From an uncultured Lachnospiraceae bacterium (GTDB lineage: Bacteria > Bacillota > Clostridia > Lachnospirales > Lachnospiraceae), in contig CACWHK010000005.1 of assembly GCA_902760755.1 (NCBI GenBank), positions 1-64,000 on the forward strand: a stretch of DNA of 64,000 bases, read 5' to 3'. Of the stretch, positions 33,811-63,560 are shown one piece after another (within the stretch, counting starts at the first letter, position 1; the number at the start of each line of letters is the position of its first letter). The notes beneath the pieces were generated by a model that worked only from the letters and a program-made list of their open reading frames with translations, did not search any database and had not been told where the DNA came from. The position numbers and the translations under genes are program-made.

Positions 33811-34206
33811 TTAGAGAAGGTCCTTCAAGGTCTTCCCGTAAAAGAAGTCGTGAACCATGCGGTCGAATTCACACCACATGGGCAGTGTCTGGCAGGCGTT
33901 TTTCCGCGGGCAGTCGTAGTCCGGATCCTTCAGGCAGGCAACGGAGGCGAGTGACCCTTCCATGCGTTCGAGAATCTCGCCGACGGAGTATTCTTCGGGT
34001 TTACGGCAGAGGCGGTAACCGCCGCCTTTTCCGCTGGCGCCCACGAGAAGATCTCCGGCCACCAGGTCCTTTACGATGATCTCCAGATACTTTTTGGAGA
34101 TGCCCTGGCGTTCGGCGATGTCCTTCAGTGGGATGAAGCGGTCACTGTGTTGTTCCGCCAGGTCGATCATGACGCGGAGTGCGTAGCGTCCTCTGGTTGA
34201 GATCAT
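33811..34206 (-). CDS. Rrf2-family transcriptional regulator (CymR/IscR-like)
   Basis: The 131-residue protein has an N-terminal winged helix (MISTRGRYALRVMIDLAEQ, recognition helix QGISKKYLEIIVKDL, wing GKGGGYRL) and a C-terminal region with four cysteines in CLKDPDYDCPRKNACQ and WCEF. Three of these could ligate an Fe-S cluster, as in IscR, unlike B. subtilis CymR, which has a single Cys. It is divergent from the fused-SBP transporter operon. An ACCTA inverted repeat occurs both before its own gene and over the promoters at 34352 and 44027. A role as repressor of cysteine and methionine uptake and synthesis genes is inferred. Confidence 0.88.
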   Translation of the reverse strand: MISTRGRYALRVMIDLAEQHSDRFIPLKDIAERQGISKKYLEIIVKDLVAGDLLVGASGKGGGYRLCRKPEEYSVGEILERMEGSLASVACLKDPDYDCPRKNACQTLPMWCEFDRMVHDFFYGKTLKDLL

Positions 34207-34343: not shown

Positions 34344-34380
34344 AAAACCTATTGACAGAGTAGGTAAAAGGGTGTATACT
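34344..34380 (+). promoter_or_regulatory. Promoter/operator of the transporter-thiol operon
   Basis: Consensus TTGACA (34352-34357) and TATACT (34375-34380) are exactly 17 bases apart. An inverted repeat, ACCTA-N9-TAGGT (34347-34365), covers the -35 box. The 22-base block is nearly identical to that at 44021, differing at one base in the spacer. Confidence 0.85.
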
Positions 34381-34454
34381 CCGTCTTGTCATTCAAAATG
34401 ATGCTCCGGAAATCATCAGTTCACAATCACCGGGGCAGGAAAGGAAGCACGGAA

Positions 34455-34568
34455 ATGAGAACATCGTATTTCACAACTACATGTATGTGTATGATGATGT
34501 GCGGTTGCATGCTGCAGGATTCCCGATTCGGTCGAGACAGCGGTGATGCGGCGGTTTGCCGTGCCTGA
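34455..34568 (+). CDS. Cys/Met-rich leader peptide 1
   Basis: The 37-codon ORF starts at an ATG preceded by AGGAAAGGAAG. Codons 10-19 read CMCMMMCGCM, that is four Cys and five Met codons in ten, and a further Cys precedes the end. It lies about 75 bases after the promoter and is followed 27 bases after its stop by an intrinsic terminator. This is the arrangement of an amino-acid-responsive attenuator leader; the operon downstream encodes Met- and polar-amino-acid-type transport, which fits Cys and Met as the sensed residues. Confidence 0.72.
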   Translation: MRTSYFTTTCMCMMMCGCMLQDSRFGRDSGDAAVCRA

Positions 34569-34626
34569 ATGACGCTGTGATATCTGCGATTTGAGCCGGG
34601 ATCCGAATGAGGGTTCCGGTATTTTT
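34517..34626 (+). promoter_or_regulatory. Attenuator: terminator with competing antiterminator pairing
   Basis: CCGGGATCC (34596-34604) pairs with GGGTTCCGG (34611-34619), followed by TATTTTTA: an intrinsic terminator 180 bases upstream of the first structural gene. GGATTCC (34517-34523), inside leader peptide 1 just after the Cys/Met run, can pair with GGGATCC (34598-34604) and would pre-empt the terminator. A further pair, TATCTGC (34581-34587) with GCAGATA (34633-34639), encloses the terminator. Confidence 0.6.
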
Positions 34627-34675
34627 ATGTCTGCAGATACCGTGAATTAAAAAATAAGAAAGGATGGGAATGACC

Positions 34676-34789
34676 ATGATGTGTTCGAAAGAGAAGCGAA
34701 TGCCGCAGGCGCGGCGATGTTGTAACCTGGAGGTTTTAAAGAAGGAAAACAGAAACAGACATAAGCTTAGACGAAAGCGTCTTAAATAG
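34676..34789 (+). CDS. Putative leader peptide 2 (Cys-Cys containing)
   Basis: A second 37-codon ORF begins at 34676 behind AAAGGATGGG. It encodes MMCSKEKRMPQARRCCNLEV and then a strongly basic tail, and ends 16 bases before the SBP gene start. The RCCxL core also occurs in the leader at 44120 (RCCRL), which argues for a common regulatory origin rather than chance. It could act through translational coupling or stalling just upstream of the SBP ribosome site. Confidence 0.5.
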   Translation: MMCSKEKRMPQARRCCNLEVLKKENRNRHKLRRKRLK

Positions 34790-34805
34790 AAAGAAGGAAA
34801 GAATT

Positions 34806-36497
34806 ATGAAGAAGAACTTAAAGAATACTGCAAAGAAGAGCTTTTTGAAGAGGATCGCAGCAGCGAGCCTGACACTGGTCGCATCCCTGGGACTGCTTAC
34901 CGCATGCGGAGCAGAGGGAGGTTCCACCGCAGCAGCGAAGGGAACGGATGTAGCGGATACACAGGCTGACAAAGCCATCTACCGGACACTGGATGAGATC
35001 AAGGCATCCGGAACCGTGAATATCGGAGTCTTCTCCGATAAGTCCCCATTTGGATATGTGGATGAAAACGGCAAATACCAGGGCTATGATGTATATCTGG
35101 CAGAGCGTCTCGGCAAGGATCTGGGCGTATCGATCAATTACGTATCCACAGAGGCAGCCAGCCGCATCGAGTATCTGAAGACAGGAAAGGTTGATATCGT
35201 TCTTGCAAACTTCACGGTAACTCCGGAGCGTGCGGAGGAGGTTGATTTCGCACTTCCGTACATGAATGTGGCACTCGGTGTTGTATCTCATGACGATCAC
35301 GTGATCACGGATCTCAGTCAGGTAACTGCAGATGAGCAGATCATCGTCATCTCCGGAACCACCGCTGAAACCTATCTTGAGAAGAACAATTCCGGGATCA
35401 AGCTTCAGAAGTTCGATACATATGCAGCAGCCAAGAGTGCATTTGAAAACGGTACCGGCGTAGCGTGGGCAAATGATAACACTGAGGTGATCGCATTTGC
35501 CAAGGAGAACAAGGGCTACACGGTTGGTATTGATTCTCTCGGCAGTGCAGATACCATCGCACCGGCAGTATCCAAGGGAAATACAACCCTTCTTAACTGG
35601 ATCAATGATGAGATCAAGTCTCTTGGCAATGAGAAGTTCTTCCATGCAGATTACGAAGCAACTCTGATCAACACCTACGGTGCTGAGTTTGAGGATACAC
35701 TGGTGATCGAGGGCGGCGTTGTTTCCGAGAAGAAGGAAGAGGCAGCTCCGGTAGCACCGGAAGCAAAGGGAACCATCACCGTAGCAGCATCTCCCACACC
35801 TCATGCTGAGATCCTTGCAAAGGCAAAGGACATCCTGGCAGCAGAGGGCTGGGACCTTCAGGTAACAGAGTTTGAGGATTATGTTCAGCCGAACCTTGTA
35901 GTAGAGAGCGGCGAGATCGATGCAAACTATTTCCAGCACGTACCGTATCTGGATGACTTCAACAAGGAAAACGGAACCAATATCGTAAATGCAGCAGGTA
36001 TCCACTATGAGCCCTTCGGAATCTATCCGGGAACCAAGGCTTCTCTGGAGGAGCTGGCAGATGGCGATACCATCGCAGTACCCAACGATACCACAAACGA
36101 AGCACGTGCACTTCTGCTTCTGCAGGCAAATGGTGTGATCAAGCTGAAGGAAGGCGCAGGCCTTACCGCAACCACACTGGACATCGAAGAAAATCCGAAG
36201 AACTTGAAGATCCAGGAGCTGGAGGCAGCACAGGTATCCCGCGTAAAGGATGAAGTTGCATTTGTTGTCCTGAACGGTAACTATGCACTGGAGGCAGGTC
36301 TCTCCGTAGGAAAGGATGCCATCGCATACGAGAAGTCCGATTCCGAGGCAGCAAAGACCTACGTAAACATCATCGGCGTAAAGGCCGGCAATGAGAACAG
36401 CGAGAAGATCCGGGCACTGGTTAAGGCTCTTGAGTCTGAGGAGATCCGTCAGTATATCATCGATACCTATGACGGCGCAGTGATCCCGTTTAACTAA
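34806..36497 (+). CDS. Fused substrate-binding lipoprotein: polar amino acid (SBP_bac_3) + MetQ/NlpA
   Basis: The 563-residue lipoprotein (lipobox ending LLTAC at Cys34) has two complete binding domains. The first (about 59-300; VNIGVFSDKSPFGYVDENG, TPERAEEVDFALPY, GTTAETYL) is the PF00497 type used for cystine, glutamine and similar amino acids. After a Glu/Ala/Pro linker the second (about 320-563; TITVAASPTPHAEILAKA, DANYFQHVPYLDDF, AVPNDTTNEARALLLLQ) is the MetQ/NlpA type for methionine. The following genes supply both matching permease sets. One anchored protein thus appears to serve two ABC importers, something I have not seen described. Confidence 0.9.
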   Translation: MKKNLKNTAKKSFLKRIAAASLTLVASLGLLTACGAEGGSTAAAKGTDVADTQADKAIYRTLDEIKASGTVNIGVFSDKSPFGYVDENGKYQGYDVYLAERLGKDLGVSINYVSTEAASRIEYLKTGKVDIVLANFTVTPERAEEVDFALPYMNVALGVVSHDDHVITDLSQVTADEQIIVISGTTAETYLEKNNSGIKLQKFDTYAAAKSAFENGTGVAWANDNTEVIAFAKENKGYTVGIDSLGSADTIAPAVSKGNTTLLNWINDEIKSLGNEKFFHADYEATLINTYGAEFEDTLVIEGGVVSEKKEEAAPVAPEAKGTITVAASPTPHAEILAKAKDILAAEGWDLQVTEFEDYVQPNLVVESGEIDANYFQHVPYLDDFNKENGTNIVNAAGIHYEPFGIYPGTKASLEELADGDTIAVPNDTTNEARALLLLQANGVIKLKEGAGLTATTLDIEENPKNLKIQELEAAQVSRVKDEVAFVVLNGNYALEAGLSVGKDAIAYEKSDSEAAKTYVNIIGVKAGNENSEKIRALVKALESEEIRQYIIDTYDGAVIPFN

Positions 36498-36508
36498 TAA
36501 CATCACAA

Positions 36509-36533
36509 GGTCATCCCGCACTGCGGGGTGACC
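36509..36533 (+). other. Intra-operonic hairpin after the SBP gene
   Basis: GGTCATCCCGC (36509-36519) pairs with GCGGGGTGACC (36523-36533) with a three-base loop and no T-run. Such hairpins protect the upstream mRNA end and let binding proteins be made in excess over the permease subunits. Confidence 0.7.
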
Positions 36534-36551
36534 GTAGGAAGGGCATGTATT

Positions 36552-37433
36552 ATGGCAGTCATTGAACTGGAACAGGTGAATAAGACATATTCCGGAAAGA
36601 ACGGAACCGTGCAGGCACTGAAGGAGGTCAGTCTATCCGTGGAGGAGGGCGAGATCTTCGGAGTGATCGGTCTGTCCGGAGCAGGGAAGAGCACGCTGGT
36701 TCGCTGCATCAATCTGCTGGAGCGTCCGGAATCCGGACGTGTCCGGGTGGAAGGACGGGAGATATCCTCCTTCTCCGAACGAGAGCTTCGGCTTGAGCGG
36801 CAGAATATAGCCATGATCTTCCAGCAGTTCAATCTGCTGATGCAAAGAACGGTGCTGGATAATGTCTGCTTCCCACTGGAAATAGCAGGCCTTCGGAAGA
36901 AGGAAGCCAGAAAGCAGGCATTGGAGTATCTTCGGACGGTGGGACTGGAGGAGAAGGCAAAGGCCTATCCGGTCCAGCTCTCCGGAGGTCAGCAGCAGCG
37001 TGTTGCGATCGCCAGGGCACTGGCCTCTCATCCGCGGATCATTCTCTGCGATGAAGCGACCAGCGCTCTCGATCCGCAGACCACCCGGACCATTCTGGAG
37101 CTTCTCCGGAAGGTGAACCGGGAGTTGGGAATCTCCATCGTGGTCATCACCCATGAAATGCGTGTGATCACGGAGATCTGTGACCGTGTCGCAGTCCTTC
37201 ACCACGGAAGCGTGGCGGAGACGGGACCGGTGCAGGAGGTCTTCCGGAATCCGAAATCCAAGGCTGCCCGACAGCTCCTTCTCCTGCGTGAGAGCGAGCA
37301 ACTGGAGGAAGAGCTGGCGGATGAGAAGTCGGAGACGACAGATGAAACATTGAAGATTGGGGCGGCGCAGGAGTTTGAACAGGAATCGAAGAACCTGCGC
37401 GTGATCAAAGGAGGTGCGCATGCAGTTGGCTGA
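36552..37433 (+). CDS. metN: MetN-like ABC transporter ATPase lacking the NIL domain
   Basis: The ATG at 36552 follows AGGAAGGG. The 293-residue ATPase shows Walker A GLSGAGKSTL, Q-loop IFQQFNLL, signature LSGGQQQRVAIARAL, Walker B IILCDEAT and H-loop ITHEM. The sequence between (NLLERPESGRV, MIFQQFNLLMQRTVLDNV) is MetN-like. Typical MetN has about 343 residues with a C-terminal NIL/ACT-like domain that shuts transport when cellular methionine is high. Here that domain is absent and replaced by a 40-residue Glu/Lys-rich tail, so feedback control by methionine binding should be missing. It overlaps the permease gene by 14 bases. Confidence 0.88.
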   Translation: MAVIELEQVNKTYSGKNGTVQALKEVSLSVEEGEIFGVIGLSGAGKSTLVRCINLLERPESGRVRVEGREISSFSERELRLERQNIAMIFQQFNLLMQRTVLDNVCFPLEIAGLRKKEARKQALEYLRTVGLEEKAKAYPVQLSGGQQQRVAIARALASHPRIILCDEATSALDPQTTRTILELLRKVNRELGISIVVITHEMRVITEICDRVAVLHHGSVAETGPVQEVFRNPKSKAARQLLLLRESEQLEEELADEKSETTDETLKIGAAQEFEQESKNLRVIKGGAHAVG

Positions 37434-38082
37434 AATGTGGCCCATGCTGGCAGAAGGAACGTTGGACACCCTACGGATGGTGCTCATTTCCACTGCCCTC
37501 GGGTACCTGATCGGACTGCCCCTCGGCGTCCTTCTTACCATAACAAATAAAGACGGAATCAGTCCGCATCCTGTCCTATACAGGTTGTTGGATCTGATCA
37601 TAAATGTGACGAGAAGCGTTCCCTTTCTGATCCTTCTCATTCTGATCCAGCCGCTTACGAAGCTGGTGGTGGGCAAGAGCTACGGAACGACGGCGACTAT
37701 CGTTCCGCTGACCATTGCAGCCGCACCGCTGATCGCGCGGATGGTTGAGAATTCTCTGAAGGAGGTGGACCGTGGCGTGATCGAGGCCGCAGTCAGTCTC
37801 GGAGCCGGCAGGTTTACCATCGTACGAAAGGTCCTGATCCCGGAGGCCAGAACATCCCTCCTTGTAGGTATAACGATTGCACTCGGTACGATCCTCGGAT
37901 ACTCAGCCATGGCAGGCGTGATCGGAGGCGGAGGCCTCGGAGATATCGCCATTCGGTACGGATATTATCGCTATGAGACGGAGGTCATGATCATAACCGT
38001 AGTGGTTCTGGTGCTCCTGATGCAGATCCTTCAGTGGGTGGGAATGCTTCTCTCCAGAAAGGTTGACAGGCGGATCGTATGA
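37420..38082 (+). CDS. metI: MetI-like ABC transporter permease
   Basis: The ATG at 37420 lies behind AAAGGAGGTG, inside the end of the ATPase gene. The 220-residue membrane protein has five spans and the permease-ATPase coupling loop EAAVSLGAGRFTIVRKVLIPEA. Segments VTRSVPFLILLILIQPLTK and SAMAGVIGGGGLGDIAIRYG are hallmarks of MetI. It would form the membrane channel with the MetN-like ATPase and receive substrate from the second domain of the fused lipoprotein. It ends in an ATGA overlap with the next permease gene. Confidence 0.92.
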   Translation: MQLAEMWPMLAEGTLDTLRMVLISTALGYLIGLPLGVLLTITNKDGISPHPVLYRLLDLIINVTRSVPFLILLILIQPLTKLVVGKSYGTTATIVPLTIAAAPLIARMVENSLKEVDRGVIEAAVSLGAGRFTIVRKVLIPEARTSLLVGITIALGTILGYSAMAGVIGGGGLGDIAIRYGYYRYETEVMIITVVVLVLLMQILQWVGMLLSRKVDRRIV

Positions 38083-38738
38083 ATCTGGAGGTGATGGGGA
38101 ATTATCTTCCCCTGTTTGGAAAAGCCCTCTGGCTGACCTTCTGGATCGGCTGGCTGGGAATCCTGCTTTCGGTGGTGATCGGATTTGTTACCGCCATGGT
38201 ACGGCATTTCCGGATTCCGGTCCTTCGTCAGCTGGCGGGTATCTATATCGAGCTCTTCCGGAACACACCGCTTCTGGTTCAGCTTTTCTTCCTTTACTTT
38301 GGACTTCCGAAGCTGGGACTGAAGCTCAGCGCAGAGTTCTGCGGAATTCTGGGACTTGCGCTGCTGGGCGGTGCTTATATGGCGGAGACCTTCCGCAGCG
38401 GACTGGAGACGGTGGAGAAAACACAGGTCGAAAGCGCACTTTCCCTCGGAATGACCCGGGGACAGGCGTTTCGGCTGGTGGTGCTTCCGGAGGCCGTCTC
38501 TGTCAGCATACCCGGCTTTACCGCAAATGTGATCTTCTTACTGAAGGAGACCAGCGTATTTTCGGCCATCAGTCTGATGGACCTGATGTTCACAGCGAAG
38601 GATTTGATCGGGCTTTATTACAAGACAACGGAATGCCTTGTACTGCTGGTGATCTTTTATCTGATCATGCTTCTTCCGGTTTCCTTCCTCGGAAGCTGGC
38701 TGGAAAGGAGAGTGCGACGTGCAGGCTTTGGGTATTGA
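38079..38738 (+). CDS. Polar amino acid ABC permease (HisM/TcyB type), subunit 1
   Basis: The 219-residue permease has the HEQR-family start (LPLFGKALWLTFWIGWLGI), the ELFRNTPLLVQLFFLYFGLP segment and the coupling loop ESALSLGMTRGQAFRLVVLPEA. These are typical of cystine/glutamine-type importers. The start overlaps metI by ATGA, and its end overlaps the next permease gene by 20 bases, so it is co-translated with both. Together with the next gene it should form a heterodimeric channel fed by the first domain of the fused lipoprotein. Confidence 0.92.
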   Translation: MNLEVMGNYLPLFGKALWLTFWIGWLGILLSVVIGFVTAMVRHFRIPVLRQLAGIYIELFRNTPLLVQLFFLYFGLPKLGLKLSAEFCGILGLALLGGAYMAETFRSGLETVEKTQVESALSLGMTRGQAFRLVVLPEAVSVSIPGFTANVIFLLKETSVFSAISLMDLMFTAKDLIGLYYKTTECLVLLVIFYLIMLLPVSFLGSWLERRVRRAGFGY

Positions 38739-39399
38739 TGTACTGTTTAAGGGAACAAACGGCTGGCGTCTTCTGGAGGGACTCTGGGTGTCACTCCGGA
38801 TCAGTCTGATCTCGGTTGCGATCAGCCTGACACTGGGTGTCCTGGTCGGGATCCTGATGACGAAGAGGAATCCGGTGATCCGTGTTCTGACCAGAGGATA
38901 TCTGGAGATCGTGCGGTTTATGCCGCAAATGGTGCTGCTTTTTATCGTATTCTTCGGATCGACCCGTGTCTTCGGATGGGACGTGGATGCGGAGCTTTCC
39001 GCAGTGATCGTCTTCAGCTTCTGGGGCGTTGCGGAAATGGCGGACCTCACCAGAGGGGCGCTGATCAGCATCCCGAAGCATCAGTATGAAAGTGCGGCGG
39101 CACTGGGACTAAACGGAAGACAGACCTACCTTTTGATCATAATCCCACAGACGCTTCGGCGCCTGATCCCGCTCTCCATTAACCTGATCACACGAATGAT
39201 CAAGACCACAAGTCTTGTTATGATGATCGGGGTTGTAGAGGTATTGAAGGTAGGACAGCAGATCATAGAAGCGAACAGAAATTCTTCGCCAAATGCGGCC
39301 TTCGGGGTGTATGCAGTGGTCTTTCTGCTGTATTTCCTGGCCTGCTGGCCCATCAGTCTGCTGGCGAAGCATTTGGAAAAAAAGTGGGCGGTTGCCTAG
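38719..39399 (+). CDS. Polar amino acid ABC permease, subunit 2
   Basis: The 226-residue permease starts at a GTG behind AAAGGAG. It has the same family pattern: [40 protein letters not shown] and coupling loop [22 protein letters not shown]. It differs from subunit 1 in the RNTP region (RFMPQM), as is usual for the second member of a heteromeric pair. The ATPase gene follows after 22 bases. Confidence 0.92.
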
Positions 39400-39421
39400 T
39401 ACAGGAAAGGACAGGTCGGAC

Positions 39422-40225
39422 ATGGAGACAAAGGGTGAGATACTCCGGGTGGAGCATCTGACAAAGACATACGGAGACAATGTGGTCCTAAGGGACCTCA
39501 GCCTTTCCATAAAAGAGGGAGAGGTGGTGGTGGTCGTCGGGCCCTCAGGCTGCGGCAAAAGCACACTACTTCGGTGCCTGAACGGACTTGAGTCGATTCA
39601 GGAGGGGGCTGTGACCTTCCGCGGATCCCATGTGAACGGACCCCTGGGCCGAAGGGAGGAGAAAAACTGCTCGGCGGAAAGGCTTTCCGAGATTCGTCAG
39701 AAGGTCGGAATGGTCTTCCAGAGCTATGAGCTCTTTCCACATAAGACAATTCTTCAAAATGTGATGCTCGCGCCTGTTAAGGTTCAGAAGCGGGATAAGA
39801 AGGAGGTCATGGAGGAGGCACTGGCCCTGTTGAAAAGAGTCGGTCTGGAGGATAAGGCGGATTGCTATCCGAGACAGCTCTCCGGCGGCCAGAGACAGCG
39901 CGTCGCCATCGTCCGGGCGCTGGCCATGCATCCGGAGGCGATGCTCTTTGACGAGGTGACTGCAGCGTTGGACCCGGAAATGATCCGGGAGGTTCTGGAT
40001 GTATTGCTTCGTCTTGCGAAGCAGGGACGCACCATGGTGATCGTAACTCATGAGATGGGCTTCGCCGAGGCGATCGCAGATCGTGTGATCTTCATGGATC
40101 AGGGCGGAATCGTGGAGGAAGGGACCGGAATCGGCTTCTTCCGGACTCCGAAAACGGAACGGGCCAGAAGGTTCCTTGAAACATTTACGTATGGAAAAAT
40201 ATCGAAGGAACGCAAGATCAGTTAG
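39422..40225 (+). CDS. Polar amino acid ABC transporter ATPase (GlnQ/TcyC type)
   Basis: The ATG at 39422 follows AGGAAAGGACAGG. The 267-residue ATPase has Walker [13 protein letters not shown]-loop [16 protein letters not shown] (the FPH sequence marks the polar amino acid group), signature [16 protein letters not shown], Walker [13 protein letters not shown] and VTHEMGFA. The unusual Val for Pro/Ser in DEVTAALDP is also seen in some GlnQ proteins. It should power the permease pair encoded just upstream. This is the second, distinct ATPase in the same operon, so the operon encodes two complete importers. Confidence 0.93.
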
Positions 40226-40245: not shown

Positions 40246-41487
40246 ATGACAGACAGGGAGATCATCGTTAACTTCATACGGGAGGGCGAAACCGATGAGC
40301 AGAGACTCGGACTGGAGCTGGAACATTTTATCCTGAATGAAATGGAGGAGGGCATCGAGTTTGAGGTGCTTTCCGAGCTGATCCGCATGACAGGGGAGAG
40401 GCTGGGTGCGAGGCTTACGGTAACTGACGGACATGTTGTCGGTTATGATACCGGAGACTACACCGTCAGTGTGGAGCCTGCATGTCAGTTTGAGATCAGT
40501 ATCGCCCCTTTTTCGTCCATAGCGAAGATCGAAGCTGTCTACAGGGAGTTTCGCCTGCTCTGGGATCCGGTTTTCGGGAGTCTCGGGTATACACTGGTGA
40601 CCCGTGGAGTACACCCGGGGGTGGAGTCCGGCAGGATCCATCCGACGGAGCTGCCGCTCATTCCGAAGAACCGATACTACTTTATGGACCGATATTTTCG
40701 GGGAACGGGGAAGTACGGAGCACACATGATGCGGGCCTCCGCGTCGGCACAGATCTCCATGGATTACTCCTCAGAGGAGGATATGGTCAGGAAGCTTCGG
40801 CTGCTTACGATCCTTTCGCCGGTACTGATGCAGCTGATGGAGAATAAAACGAATCCGGATAGCAGGCTTGCGGAGCATGGCGGAAAGCACCTGCTCCGAA
40901 CGCAGATCTGGGATGATCTGGATCCGGATCGTACCGGTTTCTTCCCCGGGGCATTTCACGGTCAGTTCGGCTACGAAAAATATGCGGACCTTTTGCTCAG
41001 CCGTCCGCTGGTGGTCCTGACGGATGAAGGGAAGACCACCTATGCGGGGGAAAAGACTCTTACGGAGCTGCTATCCCTTTCGGGGCTCTCGGAAGACCCG
41101 AAGAGACAAAAGAAGGTTGTGGAGCATCTGCTGTCGATGTTCTTCCATCATATCCGCTTGAAGAGGTATCTGGAGGTGCGCGTGGCGGACAGCGTTCCGA
41201 TCCGGAAGGCGCTGGGGTATGCGGCTCTTCTAAAGGGGCTTCTTTACGATCCCCGGAATCTGAAACGATTGGAACGGATGCTGTCGGGGCATCTGATCGA
41301 CGTGGAGGAGGCCGTCTACCGGACGGAGATCCAGGGCGAAAACGCCATCATTTATTCCGGGAAACGGGTCTATGCCTGGGTCAGGGACATGATCCATCTG
41401 GCGGAGGAAGCCCTTCCGGAGGAGGAGAGAGTGTACCTGAAGGAATTGCAGGTCGGAGGAGCAAGAAAGGTGCGTCCGGCAGGTTGA
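40246..41487 (+). CDS. Glutamate-cysteine ligase-like protein 1 (GCS2 family)
   Basis: The 413-residue protein is of the GCS2 (plant-type/EgtA-like) carboxylate-amine ligase family. It has the N-terminal acidic metal/ATP motif RLGLELEHFIL, QFEISIAPFSSI, the substrate loop HMMRASASAQISMDYSSEED and LEVRVADSVPI. Members join the gamma-carboxyl of glutamate to an amino group, usually of cysteine. The ATG lies behind AAAAGGGGG. It is in the transporter operon (20 bases after the ATPase gene), and a second ligase homologue lies two genes on. Which amino acid each uses is unknown. Confidence 0.85.
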   Translation: MTDREIIVNFIREGETDEQRLGLELEHFILNEMEEGIEFEVLSELIRMTGERLGARLTVTDGHVVGYDTGDYTVSVEPACQFEISIAPFSSIAKIEAVYREFRLLWDPVFGSLGYTLVTRGVHPGVESGRIHPTELPLIPKNRYYFMDRYFRGTGKYGAHMMRASASAQISMDYSSEEDMVRKLRLLTILSPVLMQLMENKTNPDSRLAEHGGKHLLRTQIWDDLDPDRTGFFPGAFHGQFGYEKYADLLLSRPLVVLTDEGKTTYAGEKTLTELLSLSGLSEDPKRQKKVVEHLLSMFFHHIRLKRYLEVRVADSVPIRKALGYAALLKGLLYDPRNLKRLERMLSGHLIDVEEAVYRTEIQGENAIIYSGKRVYAWVRDMIHLAEEALPEEERVYLKELQVGGARKVRPAG

Positions 41488-41531
41488 TCCTTCGGTAGCA
41501 GAGCGTGGTAATACAGACAGGAGGTGAGGGC

Positions 41532-42305
41532 ATGTGCGAGCTTTTTGCAGTCAGTTCAGCAAACAAAATACAGGTGACGGGACTGCTGAAGGAGTTCTTC
41601 TCTCACAGCAGGGAGCATCCGAACGGCTGGGGACTAGCGATCTTTGACGAAGGCGGGCAGAATGTGGAACGGGAACCGGTCCGTGCTTCGAACAGCCTAT
41701 ATCTGAAGAACCGGCTGTCGGCGGAGATTCAGGCAAACCGTATGCTGGCGCATATCCGTCGTGCAACGGTGGGAGATGTGGATTTTCGGAACACACATCC
41801 ATTTGTAAAAAGAGATGTATCGGGACGGACGTGGACTCTGATCCACAACGGGACAATCTTCGAAGCAAGTGTTCTCAGTCCTTATCAGTATTCTCAGGTG
41901 GGAAGCACGGATAGTGAACGGATCCTTCTCTATCTGGTGGACAGGATCAATGAGAGCCTTGAAAACGACTGGAATTCCTTCGACGGAAATGAGCGGTTCC
42001 ATGTGGCGGAGCAGGTGACGCGTACGCTGTCACAGGGAAACAAGCTGAACCTGATCTTCGATGACGGGGAGTATCTCTACGTTCATAAAAATGCACCGGG
42101 GACGCTCTACATTCGTGAGAAGGCGGGAGAAGCAATCTTCTCCACGCAGCCGCTGGACGGAGGAAGCTGGAACGAGGTTCCGCCGGATCAGCTGCTGATC
42201 TATAAGGACGGGACAAGAATCTATACGGGAGAAAAGCATGGGTTTACTTATGTAGAGGATCCGGAACAGGTGAAGATGCTGTATCTCGGATTCTCCGGAT
42301 TGTAA
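41532..42305 (+). CDS. Class II glutamine amidotransferase (EgtC/YafJ-like)
   Basis: The ATG at 41532 follows AGGAGGTGAG. The 257-residue protein begins MCELFAVSS, giving the N-terminal nucleophile Cys after Met removal, then HPNGWGLAIFDEGG, MLAHIRRATVGDV, NTHPFVKRD and LIHNGTIF: the Ntn-hydrolase signature of class II amidotransferases. No synthetase domain is attached, which resembles EgtC of ergothioneine biosynthesis, an amidohydrolase that removes a gamma-glutamyl group. Being flanked by two gamma-glutamyl ligase homologues makes that analogy attractive (inference). EgtB and EgtD homologues are not in the window. Confidence 0.88.
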   Translation: MCELFAVSSANKIQVTGLLKEFFSHSREHPNGWGLAIFDEGGQNVEREPVRASNSLYLKNRLSAEIQANRMLAHIRRATVGDVDFRNTHPFVKRDVSGRTWTLIHNGTIFEASVLSPYQYSQVGSTDSERILLYLVDRINESLENDWNSFDGNERFHVAEQVTRTLSQGNKLNLIFDDGEYLYVHKNAPGTLYIREKAGEAIFSTQPLDGGSWNEVPPDQLLIYKDGTRIYTGEKHGFTYVEDPEQVKMLYLGFSGL

Positions 42306-42321
42306 AAGGAAAGGGTTTTAT

Positions 42322-43737
42322 ATGATACAAGACACGGAGCTCTATAGTGCCATTGATCAGAAATACATCCGTCCCACGGAGCGCCCCACAAAACCGGTGG
42401 TGGGTGTAGAGCTGGAATATCCCATCGTGAACCTGAAGAATATCGGCCTGTCCGAGGTGACGGAGCCGGTTGATTTTGATGTTGTTCACCGGCTTGCGGA
42501 AGGCTTTGTAGTTCGTTTTGGGTTCTCGGGAGTGATCCGGGATGATGACGGGGAGATCTACTTTGCGGAGGATCCGCGGACCGGAGATACCATTTCCTTT
42601 GACTGCAGCTTCAATACGCTGGAGCTGTCCTTCGGGATTGAGGAGAATATCTGCATCCTGAAGAATCGTTTCGACCGGTACTATTCCTTTATCGAGGAGA
42701 AGCTTCTGGAGGAGCGGCATACGCTGACCGGCATGGGGATCAATCCGGGGCTGCATGTAAACCGTGTGGAGCCGATCCAGAACGGGAGATACCGGATGCT
42801 GCTGCATCATCTGGAATCCTATACGTCCTACGGGAACCGGATACAGTTTCATCATTATCCCAATTTCGGACTCTTCAGCTGTGCGTCTCAGGTGCAGGTG
42901 GATGCCGAGAAGGATCATGTTGTGGAAATGCTGAACACCTTCAATCGTTTAGAACCGCTGAAGGCGCTCCTTTTCGCAAATTCCGTCTTTGATGCGGACC
43001 CGGATCACCGTTTTCTGGCAAGCCGGGATTATCTCTGGAAGCACAGTCTCCATGGCCTTAATCCGCACAATGTGGATGAGTATGATAAGCGGCTGCATAG
43101 TGTGGAGGAGATTGTACGTTATATCGCATCGGAGAGTCTGTATTGTCTGGAGAGAGACGGGAAGTATATCAATTTCCCGCCGGTGATGGTGGAGGAGTAT
43201 TTCCAAAGCAGGATGGTGCGGGGAGAGTATTATGACAGTGAAGAGGGGCGGTACAAATACGCAACCTTTGAGCCGAGGCTGGATGATCTTGCCTTCCTGC
43301 GTTCCTTTAAGTTCAACGATCTTACCTTCCGCGGGACTGTGGAATTCCGGTCCGTCTGTGAGCAGCCGGTAGAGGATGTGATGTCTGTGGCCGCATTTCA
43401 TGCAGGTCTTGTCACGAAGCTTCCTGAGCTGTCGGAGCTCCTGAATAACAATGTCGGGCTTTACCAGCAGGGATACAGCGTGGGCGAACTGAGGGAGGCC
43501 TTTGTTCGGCAGGAGCATACACACCGGTTTGATGATGCGGCGTATGAGCTGATCCTGGAGGTGCTGCGCCTTGCAGAGGATGGTCTGGCAGAGCGCGGGC
43601 ATGGAGAGGAGCGGTTTCTGGAGCCTCTGTTCCAAAGAGCCGAGGAAAGGACGAATCCGGCGCTGCGACTCCTGGAAAAGCTGAAGACAGGGAGAGCACT
43701 TCGGGAGGTGATTTTGGAATTTGCGGATCGGAGGTAA
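42322..43737 (+). CDS. Glutamate-cysteine ligase-like protein 2 (GCS2 family)
   Basis: The 471-residue protein shows the same ligase framework as the 40246 product, but they are clearly not recent duplicates: GVELEYPIVNL, SFNTLELSFGIEEN, FSCASQVQVDAEKD and FRGTVEFRSVCEQP. The sequence is longer at both ends, and an extra C-terminal helical part (VRQEHTHRFDDAAYELILEV onward) is present. The start follows AAAAGGAAAGGG, 16 bases behind the amidotransferase gene. It completes the nine-gene operon and is followed by a large terminator. The distinct sequence suggests a different acceptor amine from ligase 1. Confidence 0.85.
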   Translation: MIQDTELYSAIDQKYIRPTERPTKPVVGVELEYPIVNLKNIGLSEVTEPVDFDVVHRLAEGFVVRFGFSGVIRDDDGEIYFAEDPRTGDTISFDCSFNTLELSFGIEENICILKNRFDRYYSFIEEKLLEERHTLTGMGINPGLHVNRVEPIQNGRYRMLLHHLESYTSYGNRIQFHHYPNFGLFSCASQVQVDAEKDHVVEMLNTFNRLEPLKALLFANSVFDADPDHRFLASRDYLWKHSLHGLNPHNVDEYDKRLHSVEEIVRYIASESLYCLERDGKYINFPPVMVEEYFQSRMVRGEYYDSEEGRYKYATFEPRLDDLAFLRSFKFNDLTFRGTVEFRSVCEQPVEDVMSVAAFHAGLVTKLPELSELLNNNVGLYQQGYSVGELREAFVRQEHTHRFDDAAYELILEVLRLAEDGLAERGHGEERFLEPLFQRAEERTNPALRLLEKLKTGRALREVILEFADRR

Positions 43738-43994: not shown

Positions 43995-44020
43995 TTGTCC
44001 GTGAATAAAAAACTTTTAAA

Positions 44021-44055
44021 AACCTATTGACACAGTAGGTAAATCGTGTTATTAT
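44021..44055 (+). promoter_or_regulatory. Promoter/operator of the sulfhydrylase-cysteine synthase unit
   Basis: TTGACA (44027-44032) and TATTAT (44050-44055) are 17 bases apart. ACCTA-N9-TAGGT (44022-44040) overlaps the -35 box exactly as at 34347, supporting control by the same Rrf2 regulator. Confidence 0.85.
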
Positions 44056-44119
44056 ACGATTGTCCCGAAGGAAAGTGCAATCGGGATGCCGCAGTATGAG
44101 AGAAAGGAGGCGGAAGGAT

Positions 44120-44236
44120 ATGTATAGAACAGATAAGAACTTTGAAACCATGATGTGTTGTCGAATGTTCATCTCCCGGGCATATAGTATGGCTGGGGCG
44201 TTCGACTGCCGATGTTGCCGCCTCGTGAAGGATTGA
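44120..44236 (+). CDS. Cys-rich leader peptide of the sulfhydrylase gene
   Basis: The 38-codon ORF begins at an ATG behind AAAGGAGGCGGAAGG. It contains MMCCRM (Cys codons 13 and 14) and DCRCCRLVKD near the end (Cys 30, 32, 33). It lies 65 bases after the promoter and is followed by an intrinsic terminator and the O-acetylhomoserine sulfhydrylase gene. Five Cys codons in 38 in front of a cysteine/methionine synthesis gene argue for cysteine-tRNA-sensing attenuation. The RCC core is shared with the ORF at 34676. Confidence 0.75.
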   Translation: MYRTDKNFETMMCCRMFISRAYSMAGAFDCRCCRLVKD

Positions 44237-44304
44237 TCGAAGAGGTCAATTTGTGTATAGAAGCCATTTGCCCGGGAGTAATCAGCAACCCGGGCATTCT
44301 TTTT
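44175..44304 (+). promoter_or_regulatory. Attenuator of the sulfhydrylase gene
   Basis: GCCCGGG (44270-44276) pairs with CCCGGGC (44289-44295), followed by ATTCTTTTTT: a terminator 40 bases before the structural gene. An identical CCCGGGC at 44175-44181, inside the leader ORF and 14 bases after the Cys-Cys codons, can pair with GCCCGGG (44270-44276) instead, giving an antiterminator when a ribosome stalls at those codons. Confidence 0.7.
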
Positions 44305-44342
44305 TGAAAATCATCTTAAACCATAAAAAGGAGAATAATAAA

Positions 44343-45623
44343 ATGAGCGATTACAGATTTGAGACACTTCAGTTACACGTAGGACAGGAGCAGCCGGACC
44401 CCACATCCGATTCAAGAGCCGTTCCGATTTACCAGACAACCTCTTATGTATTCCATAACAGCAAGCATGCAGCAGACCGCTTCGGCCTGGCAGATGCAGG
44501 AAATATCTACGGTCGTCTGACCAACTCCACACAGGACGTGTTGGAGAAGAGACTGGCAGCCCTGGAGGGCGGCTCCGCAGCACTGGCCCTTGCATCCGGA
44601 GCAGCAGCCATCACCTACACCATCGAAGCACTTGCAGCAAACGGCGGTCACATCGTAGCGCAGAAGACCATCTACGGCGGCAGCTACAACCTGCTGGCAC
44701 ATACACTTCCGCAGTACGGGATCACAACTACATTTGTAGATGCACACAACCTGGCAGAGGTTGAGGGGGCCATTCAGGAGAATACAAGAGCCATCTACCT
44801 TGAGACCCTCGGCAACCCGAACAGTGATATCCCGGATATCGATGCCATCGCAGAGATCGCACATAAGCACGGACTTCCGGTGGTGGTTGACAACACCTTC
44901 GGTACTCCGTATCTGATCCGTCCGTTTGAGCACGGAGCTGATATCGTGGTTCACTCCGCAACCAAGTTCATCGGCGGACACGGAACCACCCTCGGCGGTA
45001 TCATCATTGAGTCCGGCAAGTTCGACTGGAGCAAGAGCGGAAAGTACCCGAACATCGCAGCTCCGAACCCAAGCTACCATGGCGTATCCTTCTATGATGT
45101 GGTAGGCCCCGCAGCATTTGTAACCTATATCCGTGCGATCCTGCTCCGTGATACCGGTGCAACGATCTCTCCGTTCAATGCATTCCTGCTTCTGCAGGGC
45201 GTTGAGACACTGTCCCTCCGCCTGGAGCGTCATGCAGAGAACACCAAGAAGGTGGTTGAGTTCCTGTCGAACCATCCGCTGGTTGAGAAGGTAAATCATC
45301 CGTCCCTTCCGGATCATCCGGATCATGCGCTGTATCAGAAGTACTTCCCGAACGGTGGCGGCTCGATCTTCACCTTCGATATCAAGGGAGGTAAGGACGC
45401 AGCATGGAGGTTCATCGACAACCTGTCCATCTTCTCCCTGCTTGCAAATGTAGCAGACGTGAAGAGCCTTGTGATCCATCCGGCATCCACGACCCATTCG
45501 CAGCTCTCCGAGGAAGAGCTTCTGGATCAGGGTATCAATCAGGGAACCATCCGTCTCTCCATCGGAACAGAGCATATCGATGATATTCTCGCAGATCTGA
45601 GAAAGGGCTTCGCAGCCGTATAA
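44343..45623 (+). CDS. metY: O-acetylhomoserine sulfhydrylase (PLP-dependent)
   Basis: The ATG at 44343 behind AAAAAGGAGAA gives a 426-residue protein, the usual length for MetY. PLP-site features are GSAALALASGAAA, VDNTFGTPYLIRPFEHGAD and the Schiff-base Lys in HSATKFIGGHGTTLGG. It makes homocysteine (or cysteine from O-acetylserine) using sulfide or a thiol. Earlier in-frame codons upstream would read through the terminator and are not used. It is preceded by the leader peptide/attenuator and followed by cysK, which fits a sulfide-assimilation unit. Confidence 0.94.
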   Translation: MSDYRFETLQLHVGQEQPDPTSDSRAVPIYQTTSYVFHNSKHAADRFGLADAGNIYGRLTNSTQDVLEKRLAALEGGSAALALASGAAAITYTIEALAANGGHIVAQKTIYGGSYNLLAHTLPQYGITTTFVDAHNLAEVEGAIQENTRAIYLETLGNPNSDIPDIDAIAEIAHKHGLPVVVDNTFGTPYLIRPFEHGADIVVHSATKFIGGHGTTLGGIIIESGKFDWSKSGKYPNIAAPNPSYHGVSFYDVVGPAAFVTYIRAILLRDTGATISPFNAFLLLQGVETLSLRLERHAENTKKVVEFLSNHPLVEKVNHPSLPDHPDHALYQKYFPNGGGSIFTFDIKGGKDAAWRFIDNLSIFSLLANVADVKSLVIHPASTTHSQLSEEELLDQGINQGTIRLSIGTEHIDDILADLRKGFAAV

Positions 45624-45663: not shown

Positions 45664-45705
45664 CGATTGAAGGATTCTAAGAATCAGGAAAGAAGGAGAA
45701 AAGCA

Positions 45706-46638
45706 ATGGCTAATATTTATAAAGGAACACTGGGACTGATCGGAAATACACCACTGGTTGAAGTTGTGAATATTGAGAAGGAACTGGGCCTTAAGGCAAC
45801 CATCCTGGTAAAGCTGGAGTACTTTAATCCGGCAGGAAGCGTAAAGGACCGTATCGCAAAGGCCATGATCGAGGATGCGGAAGAGAAGGGTCTGCTGAAG
45901 GAAGGCTCCGTCATCATCGAGCCCACCTCCGGAAATACCGGAATCGGCCTGGCAGCCATCGCTGCAGCCAAGGGCTATCGGATCATCCTGACCATGCCCG
46001 AGACCATGAGCGTGGAGCGTCGTAACATCCTGAAGGCTTACGGTGCAGAGCTGGTTCTGACCGAAGGCGCTAAGGGTATGAAGGGTGCGATCGCGAAGGC
46101 AGAGGAGCTCTCCAAGGAGATCCCGGACAGCTTTATCCCGGGTCAGTTCGTGAACCCGGCAAACCCTGCGGTTCATAAGGCAACCACAGGTCCGGAGATC
46201 TGGAAGGATACAGACGGCAAGGTAGATATCTTTATCGCAGGTGTAGGTACCGGCGGAACCGTAACCGGAACCGGCGAATATCTGAAGGAGCAGAACCCCA
46301 ACGTGAAGGTGGTTGCCCTCGAGCCGGAAGACTCTCCGGTGCTTTCCGAAGGCAGAGCCGGTGCGCACAAGATTCAGGGAATCGGTGCAGGCTTTGTACC
46401 GGACGTGTTGAACACCAAGGTCTTCGATGAGGTCTTCAAGGCAGCTAACGATGATGCATTTGCAACCGCCAAGCTGCTGGCAAAGAAAGAAGGCATCTCC
46501 GTAGGAATCTCCTCCGGTGCAGCCCTCTACGGAGCAATCCAGCTGGCGAAGCGCCCCGAGAACGAAGGCAAGGTAATCGTTGCCCTCCTTCCCGACAGCG
46601 GTGACCGCTACTACTCAACCGCACTCTTCACCGAGTAG
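45706..46638 (+). CDS. cysK: Cysteine synthase A (O-acetylserine sulfhydrylase)
   Basis: The ATG at 45706 follows AGAAGGAGAA. The 310-residue enzyme has the PLP Lys in NPAGSVKDR, the [10 protein letters not shown] substrate loop, [13 protein letters not shown] phosphate-binding loop and the [13 protein letters not shown] segment. It condenses O-acetylserine with sulfide to cysteine. In B. subtilis CysK also partners the Rrf2 regulator CymR as the O-acetylserine sensor; the Rrf2 gene at 33811 and the shared operators make a similar link possible here (inference). No serine acetyltransferase gene is in the window. Confidence 0.96.
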
Positions 46639-63420: not shown

Positions 63421-63560
63421 CAGTCCCCTGATAATCGAAAAAAGGATTGCATTCAGGGGGCTGGTATGCTAAATTACATTTAGAGGTTGCAGCAAAGCAA
63501 CTGTGGGCTGGTCGTAAGACCCAGGTCCTACCTAATCGGCGGGGAGACTCCCCGCCATTT
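63421..63560 (+). ncRNA. Structured RNA candidate upstream of DUF3800
   Basis: Five hairpins lie within 140 bases: CAGTCCCCTGA (63421-63431) with TCAGGGGGCTG (63453-63463); CTAAAT/ATTTAG (63470-63483); GTTGC/GCAAC (63486-63501); CTGGTC-GTAA-GACCCAG with a GNRA tetraloop (about 63508-63524); and GGCGGGG/CCCCGCC (63538-63556), followed by ATTTGTTTTA like a terminator. Structured RNA motifs upstream of DUF3800 genes have been described from comparative genomics. A further hairpin, GCGCCC/GGGCGC (63371-63388), lies just upstream. Which published motif it matches cannot be told here. Confidence 0.68.

Follow-up and report, generated by a model that had tools for sequence, protein, structure and literature searches.

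What decides whether RNA polymerase enters a transporter operon whose leader carries a short open reading frame (ORF) crowded with codons for cysteine (Cys) and methionine (Met)? The question is raised by a stretch of 64,000 nucleotides (nt) from an uncultured Lachnospiraceae bacterium (contig CACWHK010000005.1 of assembly GCA_902760755.1), which we call the window. The leader occupies positions 34348-34626 of the window and stands before the gene of a fused substrate-binding protein (SBP). The original prediction, made from the letters of this stretch, held that the region has the layout of ribosome-mediated attenuation. Judging from the sequence and its relatives, we think that the leader very probably attenuates transcription by a ribosome-mediated mechanism, with charged tRNA-Cys as its signal and, in transporter operons, probably charged tRNA-Met as a second one.

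Leader of the transporter operon

The elements of the leader are listed in Table 1. Those that had been claimed before can be read directly from the sequence, namely the consensus promoter upstream of the first structural gene, the 37-codon upstream ORF (uORF1) with the run CMCMMMCGCM, and the intrinsic terminator. At the codon frequencies of the window (Cys 1.8%, Met 2.6%), the probability of at least four Cys and at least five Met in ten codons is about 1e-12, so that chance is not a plausible source of the run. We rejected a chance ORF for this reason and because the ORF and its Cys codons are kept in relatives.

The predicted 7-bp pairing that would destroy the terminator is also present. 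In the ungapped register it joins 34517-34523 with 34598-34604, and when one bulged base is allowed it joins 34517-34525 with 34597-34604. That is, a segment that we call region 3 can pair either with region 2, the 5' strand of the antiterminator, or with the 3' arm of the terminator. The marks of an attenuator (a short ORF, pathway codons at a fixed place, a terminator and an antiterminator that excludes it) thus appear to be present together.

We searched 61 related genomes of the genus for orthologues of the fused gene. They were found in 12 other genomes, with 78-92% identity across most of the query, and a Cys-rich leader ORF precedes the fusion in all 12. These leaders are of two kinds: the window kind, with CMCMM(M)CGCMLQxSR and its variants, and a kind with MMCCCRMLNSRAYNMAG, which we call canonical. 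The Cys/Met runs of the relatives differ in length by whole codons. When the window and seven relatives were compared, regions 2 and 3 of the same leader bound each other more strongly than in all but 18 of 40,320 permutations (kinship ignored), a result that supports the alternative pairing. The terminator is also conserved in near relatives. The conservation whose absence would have refuted the original prediction is thus found: near relatives keep the short ORF and its Cys codons. They keep the terminator and the competing pairing as well.

A family of leaders and its RNA structure

The canonical form consists of TGY-TGY-CGA-ATG followed by CTCCCGGGCA, which pairs with the GCCCGGGAG arm of the terminator. 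A scan of genome contigs with the pattern TGYCGAATGCNNNACTCCCGRGCA, which fixes the 5' strand only, gave at least 120 stretches, 80 of which were taken as loci. Among the matches listed, the stretches were named Lachnospiraceae, Ruminococcaceae, Saccharofermentans, Hungatella, Butyrivibrio, Eubacterium, Blautia and others, and one was labelled Eggerthellaceae. With some variation, 81 sites encode xM[CWY]CRMxxSRA peptides, often continuing into xxMAG; one site enters masked bases. When these 81 sites and three others were considered, the exact partner strand TGC[CT]CGGGAG was found downstream in 68 of the 84; in 80 of them [CT]CCGGGAG was found together with a T-run. The canonical pattern had no match in viral contigs.

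A covariance model, R1, was built from an alignment (A2) of 47 leaders hand-picked from 81 non-redundant ones. The invariance of region 3 in this alignment is partly by construction, because the pattern loci were preselected for [CT]CCGGGAG and a T-run. At E <= 0.01 the model matched 46 of 397 Lachnospiraceae genomes (41 of 334 genera); about four false genomes are expected at this threshold, and all matches listed but one had E values of about 1e-4 or less. At least 4 of the 61 matches of this survey (L154, L160, L161, L177) are training sequences of the model. Among 391 genomes taken class-wide, 13 were matched at E <= 1e-4, 11 of them in four other clostridial families, and within the genus 37 of 61 genomes were matched. 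A Shine-Dalgarno-like site, loosely defined, precedes 56 of 60 survey ORFs. Three insertions were seen between the Cys codons and CGAATG, and their lengths (3, 3 and 6 nt) keep the frame. Neither the leader nor its peptides had a match in Rfam, Pfam or NCBIfam. We take the window leader to belong to a widespread and apparently undescribed family in gut Clostridia.

The antiterminator of this family covaries. In the 61 survey matches, whose rows share ancestry and were fitted to R1, which biases the count in favour of the structure, 89.9% of the alignment cells concerned were paired, compared to 31-53% when the partner was slid. The same fitted rows held 107 double-changed cells compared to 27.2 (standard deviation 4.5) in shuffles, and none of 500 shuffles reached this number. 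At two positions of the core helix G-C is replaced by A-U, in ten sequences each. RNAalifold, applied to the 47 leaders aligned without the model, returned a 9-bp core helix alone. When this core helix was combined with two helices that we propose, the 47 leaders showed 21 double-changed cells compared to 8.4 in shuffles (0 of 500). Taken together, the conserved ORF and Cys codons, the frame-keeping insertions and deletions and the covarying antiterminator support the layout of ribosome-mediated attenuation.

The arrangement of the parts can be considered as follows. Canonical region 2 starts about 12 nt past the last Cys codon, which, from the size of the ribosome footprint, is about where the edge of a stalled ribosome should lie. 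Region 3 was recognised in 117 of 149 leaders, and the stop codon of the uORF lies upstream of it in all 117, by 14-83 nt (median 33). For folding we used 129 canonical and 7 near leaders with a recognisable terminator window, L009 and L213 being omitted. With a ribosome placed on the Cys codons, the antiterminator was favoured in 115 of the 129 canonical leaders; with region 2 covered, the terminator was favoured in 126.

We suppose that the leader would work in the following way. When Cys is short, the ribosome would stall on the Cys codons and leave region 2 free, and region 2 would pair with region 3 before the 3' arm of the terminator is made, so that RNA polymerase could read on into the genes of the transporter. 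With ample Cys, the ribosome would pass through region 2, region 3 would fold into the terminator, and transcription would stop. The family would probably switch on genes of sulfur uptake and synthesis when ribosomes are short of cysteine, and perhaps of methionine. The -35 box of the promoter overlaps a predicted operator, probably that of an Rrf2-family repressor. Because of this overlap, we infer that both the start of transcription and the read-through are controlled.

Several results weigh against this scheme. In the canonical leaders the free RNA also favoured the antiterminator (98 of 129), region 2 lies behind the ribosome when it is at the stop codon, and the scheme does not account for how regions 2 and 3 are kept apart in the OFF state. 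For the window kind the completed RNA folded as terminator in 7 of 7 leaders when free and in 6 of 7 with a stalled ribosome; in the window leader itself, with a stalled ribosome, the antiterminator of the completed RNA was 3.3 kcal/mol less stable than the terminator. Antitermination in the window kind would therefore have to be kinetic, because the completed RNA folds as terminator despite the stalled ribosome. For a transcript ending at 34612, two bases into the 3' arm of the terminator, the antiterminator is the minimum-energy fold of the window leader. Covariation of the terminator plus the hairpin in the eight near sequences was no better than in shuffles, for which the small number of sequences and shifts of the alignment are perhaps to blame. 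Thus, of the two hairpins for which covariation had been proposed as a check, the antiterminator shows it in the wider family, and the terminator in the near sequences behaves like shuffles. CGAATG, moreover, is more conserved than the attenuator scheme needs.

The relation between the two kinds of leader is a further point to be weighed. The window leader was not matched by R1 at E values up to 0.5, and the four of eight window-kind leaders that R1 did match had E values of 0.15-0.42, within the range of opposite-strand artefacts; both results count against a single family. A second model, R2, built from the eight window-kind leaders, matched 20 of the 61 genus genomes at E <= 0.01. Its 11 strong matches (E <= 2e-19) include its eight training sequences. 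Of its 10 weak matches, six fall at places that R1 also matches, at E <= 1.1e-8, and four have no R1 counterpart. Both kinds share the promoter, the Cys run and the terminator, and in both an S-R segment serves as region 2. From the weak cross-matches of the models and this shared layout, we think that the two kinds form one family.

Methionine codons and alternative explanations

The DNA downstream of 157 sites was compared with the proteins of the window. Sites that shared the same 80 bases were counted once; a site with N bases was omitted, as were L215, L197 and L212, in which no motif was recognised. Merging identical leader peptides left 154 distinct leaders. By downstream gene, the class was metY in 69, the SBP-MetQ fusion in 22, metQ/metN in 21, a cystine SBP or permease gene in first place in 10, cysK in 7 and none or another gene in 25 leaders. 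That is, a recognised gene of Cys/Met uptake or synthesis follows 129 of the 154. The coupling to transport that had been proposed is correct, but it was drawn too narrowly: leaders of the same kind also stand before metY, cysK, metQ and others. The class of none or other includes cut loci and a cystathionine gamma-synthase/lyase-like gene.

In this last class some single loci were also seen. The leader at L172:1501-1652 precedes a glycyl radical enzyme of the (2S)-3-sulfopropanediol dehydratase type (a fragment, 780 bits against a cut-off of 1000), which would tie the family to the use of sulfonates. The leaders L176, L190, L196 and L208 precede a gene that by eye resembles a glutathione S-transferase (L176 had no NCBIfam hit at E 1e-30), and a LysR regulator and others were noted, likewise by eye.

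We then counted the codons of these 154 leaders, with L213 omitted and with two entries adjusted by hand, the leader of L009 and the start of L098. All 154 have a Cys among the three codons that precede the motif, although for part of the set the search pattern demands it. The mean number of Met in the last 8 codons was 2.45 before the fusion, 1.86 before metQ/metN, 1.84 in the class of none or other, 1.2 before cystine SBP or permease genes, 1.16 before metY and 1.0 before cysK. The difference between fusion and metY is significant when kinship is ignored (p = 9e-8). The mean number of Cys in the same codons was 3.32 before the fusion and 1.97-2.7 in the other classes. In 13 pairs of a fusion leader and a metY leader from the same genome, Met was higher before the fusion in 12 and equal in 1, and Cys was higher in 9 and equal in 4; for this comparison 4 of 26 genus loci had no motif match, and 13 fusion and 4 metY leaders were entered by hand.

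These data bear on whether Met is sensed at all. The conservation of the Cys codons upholds the Cys part of the leader that had been proposed, and the Met part is backed by correlation. This trend is not proof, because a single genus supplies 10 of the 13 genome pairs and the gain in Met goes along with a gain in Cys; the fusion leaders may simply have longer runs of both. One explanation is then a Cys-only attenuator, in which charged tRNA-Cys alone is sensed and the ATG codons are bystanders that serve as initiator context or as pairing sequence. The universal Cys before the motif agrees with it, as do the leaders of cystine-only transporters, which read NSCCC, NNCCC, MCCC or MCCCC (NSCCC and NNCCC having no run of Met), the single Met in the last 8 codons of 45 of 69 metY leaders, and the Cys enrichment of the fusion leaders. 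The excess of Met before the fusion, both over all metY leaders and in 12 of the 13 pairs, speaks against it. We give this explanation somewhat less than an even chance, and regard Met as a likely second input of the leader.

Another explanation looks at the RNA itself. The block CGAATG...CTCCCGGGCA could be an aptamer of a riboswitch or the site of a binding protein, with the ORF incidental or an aid to unfolding. It would suit this explanation that the nucleotides of CGAATG are more conserved than the amino acids (the changed Arg codons include CGC, CTT, TGC and TGG) and that CGATGT is conserved in 74 of 149 canonical leaders. It is improbable in our judgement, since no Rfam family was found at gathering score in the window or in six canonical loci and no credible weak match in the window leader, since insertions and deletions beside the Cys codons keep the frame and these codons lie at a nearly fixed place, and since CTCCCGGGCA is conserved because of its pairing with the terminator arm. 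A T-box was rejected in the same searches (no match at gathering score in the window and six canonical loci, nor to E = 5 in the window leader), and so was an S-adenosylmethionine (SAM) riboswitch, for which no Rfam match was seen in the window, the six loci or the window leader. Less probable still, indeed hardly to be expected, is that all control lies with the promoter and its Rrf2-type operator, the leader being either a relic or a constitutive attenuator. For it one may cite CCTATTGAC, which was seen ahead of 116 of 155 leaders, TAGG and a -10-like box following at a constant distance (0.019 expected per 240 nt; L213 left out of the count). A relic, however, would lose the covarying alternative helices and the Cys codons, and these are kept over many genera; we rejected it on this ground.

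We return to the attenuator that reads Cys and probably Met, and to an extension of it that we offer as tentative and rather doubtful. In this extension, a cis-encoded sulfur regulon of Clostridia would use one leader family to read two amino acids, the function of the operon would set the codon mix, and CGAATG would be a reset element. The mix would be Cys-only before cystine transporters, Met-Cys-Cys before metY and metQ, and a long Cys/Met alternation before the fusion. Once the ribosome has left, CGAATG may pair with CATTTG just before region 3 and let the terminator win. Among 131 leaders with region 3 recognised (L213 omitted), 82 have 5 or 6 of the 6 pairs of this CGAATG:CATTTG helix, compared to about 3% at other offsets. 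The reset helix stays an idea, because an extension of the pairing of regions 2 and 3 also explains most of the conservation.

Known systems and neighbouring genes

In Firmicutes the sulfur amino acid genes are usually framed in terms of T-boxes, SAM (S-box) riboswitches and CymR. T-boxes and SAM riboswitches also choose between terminator and antiterminator before Cys/Met genes, but in them tRNA or SAM is sensed by the RNA itself and no leader ORF takes part; the leader described here has an ORF and no Rfam match. If our reading is true, a family of leader peptides that replaces or supplements T-boxes, SAM riboswitches and CymR would explain how rumen and gut Clostridia sense their supply of cysteine. 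The regulon could then be read from DNA alone, and natural variants that can be aligned would link codon choice to the signal sensed.

Control by Cys codons is known elsewhere. Polycysteine leaderless short ORFs of mycobacteria (Canestrari et al. 2020, as cited in PMC9094748 and PMC13236596) control sulfur genes through Cys codons in a short upstream ORF, as we suppose here; this control is termed translation attenuation in PMC13236596. According to PMC1262725, Cys leader peptides are known in Actinobacteria and no conserved terminator hairpin precedes the mycobacterial cys operons. The mycobacterial ORFs are leaderless by title, whereas uORF1 starts 75 nt past the predicted -10 box and would have a 5' leader, and the present family usually has a Shine-Dalgarno-like site, an intrinsic terminator and a covarying antiterminator. 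The uORFC-8-2 motif before cysS in Rhodobacterales, predicted to act by ribosome-mediated attenuation (PMC8632094), resembles our family in its two tandem Cys codons in a uORF, its stems and its intrinsic terminator; it belongs to another phylum and another gene, and its description mentions no motif in common with the present leaders.

Attenuation by leader peptides is also known in Firmicutes. For the ilv operon of S. aureus, a leucine-rich attenuator peptide has been shown (PMC5794164); as here, a leader peptide is combined with a transcription factor, but the amino acid is leucine, the class Bacilli, and the operon biosynthetic. For hisS*/hisZ of bacilli a histidine leader is predicted to act by leader-peptide attenuation (PMC2965389), again with a premature terminator and in Firmicutes, which commonly use T-boxes; it differs in reading histidine, in being limited to a single gene family and in belonging to Bacilli. 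In the literature searched, which was a limited collection and for part of it the top results, we recognised no account of a Cys or Cys/Met attenuator in Clostridia, which agrees with the earlier claim that such a leader had not been described. Because Cys leaders are known elsewhere and none was found described in Clostridia, we regard the clostridial leader as a new form of a known mechanism.

Table 1. Positions of the leaders and neighbouring genes in the window
Feature	Positions	Strand	Evidence
Promoter: -35 TTGACA 34352-34357, 17-nt spacer, -10 TATACT 34375-34380	34348-34380	+	read from sequence
Predicted operator built into promoter, CCTATTGACAGAGTAGG, CCTA-N9-TAGG palindrome spanning -35	34348-34364	+	
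uORF1 leader peptide, 37 codons, ATG 34455 to TGA 34568, MRTSYFTTTCMCMMMCGCMLQDSRFGRDSGDAAVCRA	34455-34568	+	
CMCMMMCGCM run, codons 10-19 of uORF1	34482-34511	+	
Region 2, GGATTCCCG, 5' strand of antiterminator; lies in uORF1 directly after last Cys codon	34517-34525	+	
Region 3, CGGGATCC; pairs with region 2 or terminator 3' arm	34597-34604	+	
Intrinsic terminator, stem CCGGGATCC 34596-34604 / GGGTTCCGG 34611-34619, U-tract to 34626	34596-34626	+	
uORF2, start 34664 or 34670, end 34789, Cys-Cys, RMPxGRRC motif, basic C-terminus	34664-34789	+	kept in near relatives
Fused SBP, SBP_bac_3 and MetQ/NlpA (Lipoprotein_9) domains	34806-36497	+	Pfam
Rest of operon: MetN-like ATPase, MetI-like permease, two His/cystine-type permeases, cystine-type ATPase	36528-40225	+	
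Divergent Rrf2-family regulator	33811-34206	-	Rrf2 superfamily, 111 bits against cut-off of 73
Second-leader promoter, TTGACA 44027-44032, TATTAT 44050-44055, same operator CCTATTGACACAGTAGG	44027-44055	+	
Second, canonical leader ORF MYRTDKNFETMMCCRMFISRAYSMAGAFDCRCCRLVKD	44120-44236	+	R1 match 44147-44301, E = 1.4e-20
Second-leader region 2, CTCCCGGGC	44173-44181	+	
Second-leader region 3 GCCCGGGAG 44270-44278, terminator 3' arm 44289-44295, U-tract	44270-44305	+	
metY, O-acetylhomoserine sulfhydrylase	44343-45623	+	NCBIfam TIGR01326, 632 bits against cut-off of 495
cysK, cysteine synthase A	45667-46638	+	NCBIfam TIGR01139, 457 bits against cut-off of 351

As shown in Table 1, the fused SBP is followed by components of two transporter types, and the last frame of the operon ends at 40225. 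Because of these component types, we expect the transporter to carry methionine as well as cystine (or some other polar amino acid), and the leader family would also suggest methionine and cystine as cargo of the fused binding protein and its neighbours. The predicted operator that overlaps the -35 box is probably the site of an Rrf2-family repressor. The divergent regulator misses the NCBIfam equivalog cut-off for CymR (80.5 against 195 bits), and among the 131 leader loci whose upstream DNA was long enough, a divergent Rrf2 relative was found at 21.

The window contains a second, canonical copy of the leader (44020-44305, the leader itself at 44120-44305), which stands before metY-cysK and had been overlooked. 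A further canonical copy of the host genome lies on another contig, C41 (L184, G000:C41:1-4500), at 2128-2291 on the minus strand. It precedes what appears by eye to be an ATP-binding cassette transporter of the sulfonate type; the same reading by eye puts a LysR regulator and a JAMM-like gene on its upstream side. We infer that the host, with at least three such leaders (before the cystine/Met transporter, metY-cysK and the sulfonate-type transporter), has a cis-encoded sulfur regulon.

The second Cys-containing ORF of the transporter leader, uORF2, lies downstream of the terminator. It is outside the logic of the attenuator and is not accounted for by it. The Cys-Cys claimed for it is present, and its length, given before as 37 codons, is 37-41 codons depending on the choice of start. 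In near relatives it shows RMPxGRRC, or a variant of it such as ERRC or GHRC, along with a basic tail, and its stop codon is usually close to the ribosome-binding site of the SBP gene. The putative role of uORF2 may be to couple translation to that gene. Its exact motif occurs in 1 of 299 sampled family genomes, the host, and uORF2 was seen only in a subclade of the genus; we therefore dropped it as a wider element. The RMPxGRRC part overlies a small GC-rich hairpin, and the basic tail overlies, by eye, a possible hairpin with a GAAA loop.

Between the two leaders, at 40246-43737, the window carries a glutamate-cysteine ligase-like gene (TIGR01436, below its cut-off), an apparent class II glutamine amidotransferase gene and a second apparent ligase-like gene, the last of these having no NCBIfam hit. 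These genes possibly form a small-thiol pathway. Far downstream, at 63504-63553, a DUF3800-XI RNA (RF02975) is the only Rfam hit at gathering score in the window.

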